This document shows, piece after piece, positions 56,973 through 59,080 of a stretch of DNA of 64,000 nt; the stretch's first letter is position 1; each line of letters begins with the position of its first letter. The translations under genes were made by a program, and so were the position numbers. Under the pieces are notes generated by a model. It searched no databases and was not told the origin of the DNA. It was given only the letters and a program-made list of their open reading frames with translations. The stretch is from Archangium sp. (GTDB lineage Bacteria > Myxococcota > Myxococcia > Myxococcales > Myxococcaceae), in contig JALHMW010000011.1 of assembly GCA_022843845.1 (NCBI GenBank), positions 1 to 64,000 of the forward strand, read 5' to 3'.

Positions 56973-58331
56973 TCAGGGCTCGCGGTAGATCGTCACGCCG
57001 CCACGGACGAGATCGGTGGCGCGACGATCGTAGAAGAACGCCAGCGTCACCTTGTTCGGCGCGTGGCTCCACATCGACAGCCAGTCACCGGCGAAGTTGA
57101 GCGGCGTGTTCATCGGAGAGCAGGTCATGAAGCTCATGCCGTTGTCCGACTTCGCGAGCTTCGGCCCGCCGGCGCAGAGCGTGTTCACCGTTCCGCGGGA
57201 CAGGAAGGCGCCGCCGATCGTCATGCTGCCGTTCGGGTGCACGACGAGCCCCTGGTACCACTGGGTCGTGTTGAAGCGCATGGCCACGAAGTCACCGTTG
57301 CGAGGCACGCCCACCGGCATGCTCCACGTCGAGCCCGAGGCGTCGGTCGCGACCGAGGTCCACAGCTCGGCGTTCTGGTCGGTCATCATGCCCATCAGGA
57401 CGGGGTCGGCGCGGAGCAGATGTGCCGCAACGCGCGGCGTGGTGCCAACGAAGACCAGCGAGACCGAGGGCCGGCGCTCCACGGGCATCAAGACGTCGGT
57501 CATGTCGGAGTTCGCGATCTCAATCGCCGTCGAACCCGACGGCCGCCAGAACGCGAGCGTCGCGCGCAGGGAAGCGCCCTTGGTGAAGTACGCGAGGCCA
57601 GGGTTCCCTTCGCCGTCGAGCGCGAGGGAGATCGGGCCCAGCGCAGACGCCTGTCCTGCGGTGATCGGCGCGGCCGTCTCGGTGAAGGCGCCGGTCGTCC
57701 CGGCGCGCGTGCGGTACAGCACCTGCTCGGTCGAGGTGACGTACGCCACGTGGGCGGTGCCGTTGCGAAGCGCGACCTGCGGGAACGTCGAGTCACCAGC
57801 GCCGGGATCCATGCCGACCGTCGCGAGCGAGAAGTTCGCGCCTTCGTCGTCGCTGTACGCGTACCGAATGCCCGCGCCCGCCTTCACGTACGCGATGCCG
57901 ATACGCCCCGTGACCGAGTCGCGAGCGATCGACACCTGCCGGAGCGGCGGCGTCAGATCGATCTCTCCGACGACCTCGATCGTCTTGATCGGCTCGTACT
58001 CCTTCTTCTCGCCGTTCCACCGGGTGAAGAACACGCGCGTGTCAGCGCGGCTCCCGTCACCGTTCGGGTCGTCCCACACGGCGGCGATCAACGGCTGGTT
58101 GAACTGATCGCCGACCGCCGAGACCGACACGCCAAACCGGGTGCCGCCATCAGGGGGAATCTCTGCCGCGGTCGAGAAGCCAGACGGGGGATCCATGCCG
58201 CGCTGCCGGCCCGCGTCGGGGATCTCCATCACGATGCCGGCGTCCTCCTCGAGGACCATCGGCCGGGGACGAGGGCCGCAGGCCGTGCCCACGACGAGGA
58301 AGGAGACGACGACGAGGGCGCGTTGCATCAC
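56973..58331 (-). CDS. Sialidase-like (BNR) repeat lipoprotein
   Basis: The 452-residue protein has a lipobox (VVGTAC; residues 13-18), a short Pro/Asp-rich linker, and a beta-propeller-like region (RIGIAYVKAGAGIRYAYSDDEGANFSLATVG; TAHVAYVTSTEQVLYRTRAGTTGAFTE) with BNR-like S-x-D-x-G-x-x-F turns. It lacks the Arg-triad hints expected of true sialidases. It probably binds or displays a ligand at the cell surface. It is divergent from the Hint lipoprotein gene. Confidence 0.72.
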   Translation of the reverse strand: MMQRALVVVSFLVVGTACGPRPRPMVLEEDAGIVMEIPDAGRQRGMDPPSGFSTAAEIPPDGGTRFGVSVSAVGDQFNQPLIAAVWDDPNGDGSRADTRVFFTRWNGEKKEYEPIKTIEVVGEIDLTPPLRQVSIARDSVTGRIGIAYVKAGAGIRYAYSDDEGANFSLATVGMDPGAGDSTFPQVALRNGTAHVAYVTSTEQVLYRTRAGTTGAFTETAAPITAGQASALGPISLALDGEGNPGLAYFTKGASLRATLAFWRPSGSTAIEIANSDMTDVLMPVERRPSVSLVFVGTTPRVAAHLLRADPVLMGMMTDQNAELWTSVATDASGSTWSMPVGVPRNGDFVAMRFNTTQWYQGLVVHPNGSMTIGGAFLSRGTVNTLCAGGPKLAKSDNGMSFMTCSPMNTPLNFAGDWLSMWSHAPNKVTLAFFYDRRATDLVRGGVTIYREP

Positions 58332-58401
58332 AAGGAGGCTCCCAGACTGACGGCTCGCCCGGCGCGAGTCCGGTGGGCGTCATACAGAATCCCGGTGCAA
58401 G

Positions 58402-58417
58402 TGGCACACCGCTCGCA
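58402..58417 (+). promoter_or_regulatory. Candidate sigma-54 promoter of Hint lipoprotein gene
   Basis: TGGCACACCGCTCGCA fits the sigma-54 consensus (TGGCAC, five bases, TTGC) at 9 of 10 defined positions with correct spacing, GG at 58403-58404 and GC at 58415-58416. Transcription would begin about 12 bases after the GC, near 58428, only about two bases before the ATG at 58430, so the message would be nearly leaderless. Confidence 0.42.
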
Positions 58418-58429
58418 CTGGCCCTTCAC

Positions 58430-59080
58430 ATGAAGAAGCTGCTGATGGGCCTTGGCGTGGCGTCGTCAATCGCAGCATGCGGTCCGTTTCCCTTCTGCGT
58501 CGCGCGCGGGTCGAGGGTGCGGACCCCGACCGGCCCCAGACTCATCGAAGAGCTCGAGGTGGGTGACGAGATCGTCGTGGCTGATCCAGCGACAGGCCTG
58601 ACAGCGGTGTCGCGACTCGAGGCCGTCCTCAAGAGCACCCGGGAGTGCGGCACGCTCCGGTTCTCAGGCCGAGCCCTCTCGGTGACGTCTGACCACCCGC
58701 TCTACGATCCGCAGGCGCACGGCTTCTTCCCGGCCGGCGACTGGCTGCTCGGCCTCCGGACTCACCTGTTCGAGATCACCGACTCCGGAGCGACCGTGGT
58801 GCGGGTCGAGAACTTCGAGGCCTTCACGCGCATCGACGACGTGTTCGATCTCACCGTCGCGCACGAGTGGCACACGTTCGTCGCCGAAGGCGTGCTGGTG
58901 CACAACAAGCAGCCCGCCAACTGTTCGATTCCCGATGGGGGCTTCACCACGCTGGGCACACCGGACGAACTCCGCCCGGGCTGCACGTGCATGGACGGGG
59001 GCGTGGGCCGATGGACGTGTGGTGGCTCAGGCGGCCTGGCCCTCTGCCAGTTCTGCGCGGCGCAAGACGGCGGGCCGTGA
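58430..59080 (+). CDS. Hint-domain (bacterial intein-like) lipoprotein
   Basis: The 216-residue protein has a lipobox ending at C17 (SSIAAC) and, from C23, a complete Hint domain: block A CVARGSRVRTPTGP, LEVGDEIVVADPATG, block B TSDHPLYDPQ (residues 86-94) with LLGLRTHL, and the C-terminal block VFDLTVAHEWHTFVAEGVLVHNK ending in H158-N159. K160 follows, so there is no Cys/Ser/Thr nucleophile for splicing. A 57-residue tail with six cysteines completes it. Hint domains self-cleave at their ends. Release of the tail or of the whole protein from its lipid anchor is the likely use (inference). A sigma-54-like promoter lies just upstream. Confidence 0.85.
   Translation: MKKLLMGLGVASSIAACGPFPFCVARGSRVRTPTGPRLIEELEVGDEIVVADPATGLTAVSRLEAVLKSTRECGTLRFSGRALSVTSDHPLYDPQAHGFFPAGDWLLGLRTHLFEITDSGATVVRVENFEAFTRIDDVFDLTVAHEWHTFVAEGVLVHNKQPANCSIPDGGFTTLGTPDELRPGCTCMDGGVGRWTCGGSGGLALCQFCAAQDGGP

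Follow-up and report, generated by a model that had tools for sequence, protein, structure and literature searches.

The gene at 58430-59080 of the window (the whole 64-kb stretch of Archangium sp. DNA analysed here) raises the question of what a Hint domain does when it is placed between a predicted lipoprotein signal peptide, almost adjoining it, and a short cysteine-rich tail. The natural role of Hint domains of the bacterial intein-like (BIL) type is largely unsettled, and the family described below retains their catalytic set in a minimal arrangement of predicted lipid-bearing cysteine, Hint domain and Cys-rich tail.

A small predicted lipoprotein

The ORF shows the G+C distribution of a coding frame (0.66, 0.53 and 0.84 at the three codon positions) and its product is predicted to be a small lipoprotein. 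The sequence-only reading had proposed a lipobox cysteine, five residues, a Hint domain running from Cys23 to H158-N159, Lys160 and a tail with six cysteines, an order that is confirmed in the ORF (Table 1). A signal peptide ending in a lipobox cysteine, which defines bacterial lipoproteins, is recognized by motif rule and conserved in homologues. In M. xanthus, a lysine at position +2 of the mature lipoprotein directs it to the inner membrane and an alanine at +7 to the extracellular matrix (PMC3222651). The protein carries Gly at +2 and Cys at +7, and thus neither signal, suggesting that it would be located in the outer membrane by default.

Table 1 Features of the Hint lipoprotein gene and its upstream region (window positions)
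Feature	Position	Strand	Remarks
Divergent lipoprotein gene sharing its intergenic region with the Hint gene	56973..58331	-	Conserved neighbour
Candidate sigma-54 (-24/-12) element, TGGCACACCGCTCGCA	58402..58417	+	28 bp before ATG; putative function
Lipobox-Hint-Cys-tail lipoprotein gene, 216 aa	58430..59080	+	ORF from ATG to TGA
Predicted lipoprotein signal peptide, residues 1-17, MKKLLMGLGVASSIAA-C17, lipobox SIAA-C17	58430..58480	+	Lipobox by motif rule, kept in homologues
Spacer GPFPF (G18-F22), five residues from the predicted lipid Cys17 to Hint Cys23	58481..58495	+	0-7 residues in homologues
Hint domain, residues 23-159: Cys1 = C23, T86xxH89, D140, H148, terminal H158-N159	58496..58906	+	Profiles, alignment and predicted model
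Residue +1, Lys160	58907..58909	+	Invariant in the 16-sequence family alignment
C-terminal tail, residues 160-216 (57 aa from Lys160)	58907..59077	+	Six Cys; CxC and CxxC motifs; DGG-P end

Assignment of the Hint domain

Profile searches with the window protein gave a Pfam Hint_2 match just under the curated cut-off (E 2.6e-6) and a PT-HINT match (PF07591, E 2.5e-5) of 25.0 bits, to be compared with a curated cut-off of 27.7. The NCBIfam profile for intein C-termini (TIGR01443 intein_Cterm) exceeds its cut-off, while that for N-termini (TIGR01445 intein_Nterm) does not. In the PDB, the closest sequence is that of 2LWY, a BIL domain, which aligns with residues 26-159 (E 1e-7). An AlphaFold model of residues 18-164, built from seven sequences, reaches a pLDDT of 91.8 and a pTM of 0.86. 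Foldseek ranks BILs and inteins highest (lowest E 1.7e-9), and the model superposes on the inteins of Mtu RecA and Ssp DnaB with an rmsd of 1.7-1.9 Å. The model therefore predicts a fold of the Hint superfamily, and the Hint identity put forward in the sequence-only reading holds at both the sequence and the fold level. The full-length model is poor (pLDDT 65, pTM 0.41) and no claim on the fold of the tail is drawn from it.

Among the known classes, type-A BILs are the nearest in predicted fold and in residues: the domain has Cys1, a block B T..H (here T86-S-D-H89), a C-terminal His-Asn and no nucleophile at +1. Its host context is not the usual one: BILs sit in variable regions of larger proteins that are not conserved, whereas this domain makes up most of a predicted lipoprotein of 216 aa. 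The Lys at position 160 separates it from class 1 inteins, which have Cys, Ser or Thr at +1. Pretoxin Hints are set apart by the PF07591 score below cut-off, by the lack of any Pfam domain in the tail and by the lack of a recurrent neighbour. The relative L015/L084 scores above the curated cut-off of that profile. The sterol-recognition region that follows the Hint domain of Hedgehog Hog proteins is replaced here by the Cys-rich tail.

Distribution and conservation of the family

The protein search identified matches in 14 of 195 Myxococcota genomes, 13 of them in the taxonomic family of the window. Six further loci came from a contig collection scanned with peptide patterns taken from the window protein, an approach that recovers only close relatives; their titles read Myxococcaceae, Archangiaceae, Myxococcales or Myxococcota, and some of them correspond to the same contigs. 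A plasmid search returned weak matches only, mostly to pretoxin Hints. In the open-access literature, searches joining Hint with lipoprotein, lipobox, pretoxin or myxobacteria revealed no description of this architecture.

The 16 aligned family sequences, all from Myxococcota, share 36-80% identity with the window protein. C23, T86, H89, H148, V157, H158, N159 and K160 are invariant and D140 is nearly so; the Cys, TxxH and HN residues on which the sequence-only reading was based are thus kept in the aligned homologues. In addition, dN/dS values of 0.16-0.43 among five close homologues indicate that the Hint domain is under purifying selection. Every complete member has a lipobox cysteine 0-7 residues ahead of the Hint Cys1, and the two cysteines are adjacent in three members, L008, L009 and L011. 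The lipobox assignment is less secure in L008, as are the start positions in L011 and L019. Outside the family, the phylum set contains 23 Hints with Cys1, and no lipobox-like motif lies near any of them; together with the short spacing kept within the family, this argues that the arrangement is not due to chance. The majority of these other Hints are of the pretoxin type and form the C-terminal part of RHS-like ORFs some 2000 aa long.

The invariant Lys+1 is rare elsewhere, being found in one of 23 non-family Hints ending in HN in the phylum set. This one, L043/L085, lacks a nearby lipobox, so that Lys+1 is not exclusive to the family. The residue might assist Asn cyclisation, matter for the released peptide or take part in ligation.

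A Cys-bearing tail is present in 15 of the 16 aligned homologues. It evolves faster than the Hint domain but keeps the cysteine pattern C...CxC.DGG.G...C...C..C. Across 96 family genomes (with up to 68 candidates scored per genome), all 11 matches of the tail model lie in ORFs that also hold a family Hint, and no free-standing tail domain was found. In L011 and L019 the tail is long and its 24 Cys fall in repeated CxC units, which suggests a tail expansion; L007 bears an extra C-terminal region.

A distant member, L029, has the same architecture with a different C-flank, devoid of Cys in its aligned part, and groups nearer to the pretoxin Hints in the tree. The lipobox-Hint arrangement may therefore have arisen more than once. 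In genome G153, a frameshift near residue 57 interrupts one member (L022/L023, L028), which may reflect an assembly error or a pseudogene, and an unaligned fragment (L024) reads HNE.

Copies lacking the lipobox

Three copies (L012, L020 and L021) have no lipobox. The terminal HN is missing from all three as well, and so is the Cys tail: LLVGDA (VGD) closes L012 and L020, and L021 has RN. L021 is found at the locus of the window gene, flanked by the divergent lipoprotein gene on one side and the acyl-CoA dehydrogenase gene on the other, and lies on a long branch (1.21) of the tree beside L004 (0.18), its close relatives having branches of 0.03-0.24. The probability that HN, tail and lipobox are lost together by chance among 20 copies is about 0.0009 when kinship is ignored, and the co-loss corresponds to only about two independent events. 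This coincidence suggests that HN is kept in order to cut off the tail. Cys1 and T..H are retained in all three copies; these residues are therefore not specific evidence for N-terminal cleavage.

Genomic context and upstream region

The genes are ordered thrS, an ORF, an IstB/DnaC-like ATPase, the divergent lipoprotein, the Hint gene and an acyl-CoA dehydrogenase, and this order is wholly or partly kept in L025/L002, L027/L004 and L013. In the syntenic copy of genome G150 (L013:1501-1800), most of the Hint domain has been deleted, indicating that the gene is dispensable there. What is left encodes a signal peptide and, beyond a stop but in the same frame, the remains of a DAG-rich tail. Family copies outside this type of locus share no neighbour. 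An all-against-all comparison of the ORFs around the 20 copies identified no recurrent partner, receptor or immunity gene; apart from the Hint gene itself and frames antisense to it, only the conserved locus of the window and isolated chance similarities came up.

A polymorphic toxin was rejected as an identity for this gene, there being no RHS region, toxin or immunity neighbour. A defence system was rejected as well: the only PADLOC match was weak (E 0.04) and paired a homing endonuclease model with the C-terminus of the intein.

The candidate sigma-54 element reads TGGCAC-N5-TCGCA and differs from TGGCAC-N5-TTGCW by one mismatch, in the -12 part. It is the sole match in the window, where 0.07 are expected, with a search pattern that admitted Y at the changed base and was set after the site had been seen. 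The site is kept in four syntenic orthologues (L001, L002, L004 and L013), with one variable base in N5. Its distance to the ATG is 45-51 bp in the three others, leaving space for a ribosome-binding site, compared with 28 bp for the window gene. Relative to its nearest orthologue, L002, the window gene has a deletion of about 19 bp between the candidate site and the ATG (58402-58430). This deletion took away the GGGAGG ribosome-binding site, and a transcript starting from the candidate site would consequently be nearly leaderless. Conditional control by sigma-54, as put forward in the sequence-only reading, is thus only tentatively retained: conservation of the site in four orthologues is in its favour, while the deletion of the ribosome-binding site speaks against it. 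The region 58330-58430, between the divergent lipoprotein and Hint genes, also contains an inverted repeat (GGCTCGC-CCGGC-GCGAGYC) and a GTCATACAGAATCC block, both kept in four genomes.

Possible release of the tail and alternative readings

By analogy with type-A BILs, the protein may be a BIL-like lipoprotein that cleaves itself between N159 and K160 and releases its Cys-rich tail, a reading to which we assign a probability of about 0.5. Export, lipidation at Cys17 and removal of the signal peptide, as expected from the lipobox, would be followed by folding of the Hint domain at the membrane, which would place Cys23 just five residues away from the lipid. Helped by His158 and block F, Asn159 would then cyclise, cutting the N159-K160 bond and freeing the six-Cys tail. 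In a second, less certain step, the thioester at Cys23 might also hydrolyse and free the Hint domain from the lipopeptide. Type-A BILs, which have HN and no +1 nucleophile, mostly cleave and can also ligate their flanks (PMC4031507). They mainly yield cleavage products according to another report (PMC7664689), and a third source considers them unable to ligate (PMC7765530). Cleavage at N159/K160 would thus be expected by analogy, and self-release of the tail is plausible. Against this reading, N-terminal cleavage, if rapid, would set the Hint domain free ahead of sorting and make the anchor pointless, and the co-loss of HN, tail and lipobox represents only about two independent events. The gene is also dispensable in G150 and has no recurrent partner, receptor or immunity gene.

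The protein might instead be a stable lipoprotein whose Hint domain is a binding or scaffold fold, cleaved slowly or never, with the tail remaining attached. Such a function would agree with a +1 lysine in place of a nucleophile, with an N-terminal intein profile under its cut-off and with the persistence of copies without HN in three genomes. It is nevertheless rather unlikely given that HN and T..H are invariant over the 16-sequence alignment and that HN is absent only where the tail is absent too. A further possibility is that the protein descends from a polymorphic toxin, as a decaying pretoxin Hint whose toxin is gone. Against it stand the purifying selection on the Hint domain, the tail's own conserved Cys pattern and the position of the family, except L029, apart from the pretoxin Hints in the tree. 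We consider this origin very unlikely, even though pretoxin Hints prevail in the phylum and the G150 copy is broken.

Other readings give the Cys23 thioester a nucleophile other than water. The sequence-only reading had held splicing to be unlikely on account of the +1 lysine, which proves too strong, since type-A BILs without a +1 nucleophile can ligate their flanks through attack of the kind envisaged here: the α-amine of Lys160 would resolve the thioester, excise the Hint domain and leave a lipid-CGPFPF-KQPANC... peptide. The contrast between the invariance of Lys+1 in the aligned family and its rarity in other Hints of the phylum is also consistent with splicing. We still regard it as unlikely, because known type-A BILs chiefly cleave (PMC4031507, PMC7664689), or cannot ligate at all if PMC7765530 is followed, and because a spacer of zero would reduce the N-flank to a single lipidated Cys. 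In a broader form, which appears distinctly unlikely, a BIL-like Hint at the membrane interface, its thioester 0-7 residues from the lipidated Cys, would transfer or splice the lipopeptide onto the invariant Lys+1 and produce a small lipidated Cys-rich peptide; if true, this would represent self-catalysed lipid relocation in bacteria. Finally, the thioester could pass the lipopeptide to a lipid, sugar or protein nucleophile in the manner of Hedgehog. Cys1 should indeed sit at the membrane interface, and the predicted fold also matches the Hedgehog Hint 1at0 (Foldseek E 4e-6), but there is no sterol-recognition region, no acceptor is known and HN and the tail would be superfluous, making this transfer extremely improbable.

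Natural variants have lost HN along with the tail, and since only one small protein has to be produced and assayed, the question whether envelope peptides are released or relocated by Hint autoprocessing in bacteria is directly testable.

Comparison with known systems

Hedgehog Hog proteins also link Hint thioester chemistry to a lipid context, and in some nematode Hog proteins only 15-34 residues separate the signal peptide from the Hint domain (PMC2362128). The window protein differs from them in the absence of a sterol-recognition region, in its predicted lipid, which would be carried by the lipobox Cys ahead of the Hint domain, and in its terminal HN and C-terminal tail.

The pretoxin Hints (PF07591) of polymorphic/RHS toxins and MafB are likewise Hint domains of secreted bacterial proteins, to which the window protein has a weak PT-HINT match, and the Hint domain of MafB is thought to release a C-terminal domain (PMC7738311). 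In contrast, the window gene is a short ORF without RHS/DUF1020 region, toxin domain or adjacent immunity gene, and has a lipobox beside Cys1. The MXAN_6253/STIAU_1829 group of myxobacteria and gammaproteobacteria (Buerglin 2008) also comprises bacterial, partly secreted Hint-like proteins. However, their Hint-like domain is C-terminal, behind an upstream region, while that of the window protein is N-terminal at the predicted lipid anchor. Three Myxococcaceae ORFs of about 650-700 aa (L086, L087 and L089), with a C-terminal Hint-like domain ending in VVGD rather than HN, may correspond to this group.

A different N-terminal Hint arrangement occurs in two small genomes of 1.6-1.8 Mb (L045/L076 in G175, L048/L075 in G173), where a secretion-signal-like N-terminus is soon followed by a Hint domain that lacks Cys1 and ends in HN, and then by long C-terminal regions. 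In L050 (G058), an intein-like insertion lies right after the DEAH box of a helicase-like ORF (ICDEAHHA-C...VVHN-C) and is probably a true intein with an internal domain.

Class 1 inteins, such as the Mtu RecA and Ssp DnaB mini-inteins, share fold and catalytic residues with the window Hint, which differs by its Lys+1 in place of Cys, Ser or Thr and by the absence of a conserved host protein and of an endonuclease. The closest system is the type-A BIL of Clostridium thermocellum (PDB 2LWY), which among PDB entries ranks first by sequence and second by fold. It has the Hint fold predicted for the window protein, as well as Cys1, T..H, a C-terminal His-Asn and no nucleophile at +1. Known BILs lie in variable regions of bacterial proteins, whereas the window Hint is flanked on its N-terminal side by a lipobox Cys with 0-7 residues and on its C-terminal side by a short Cys-rich tail. 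The window Hint is classed as a new architecture of BIL-like Hint rather than as a canonical BIL, an intein or a pretoxin Hint.
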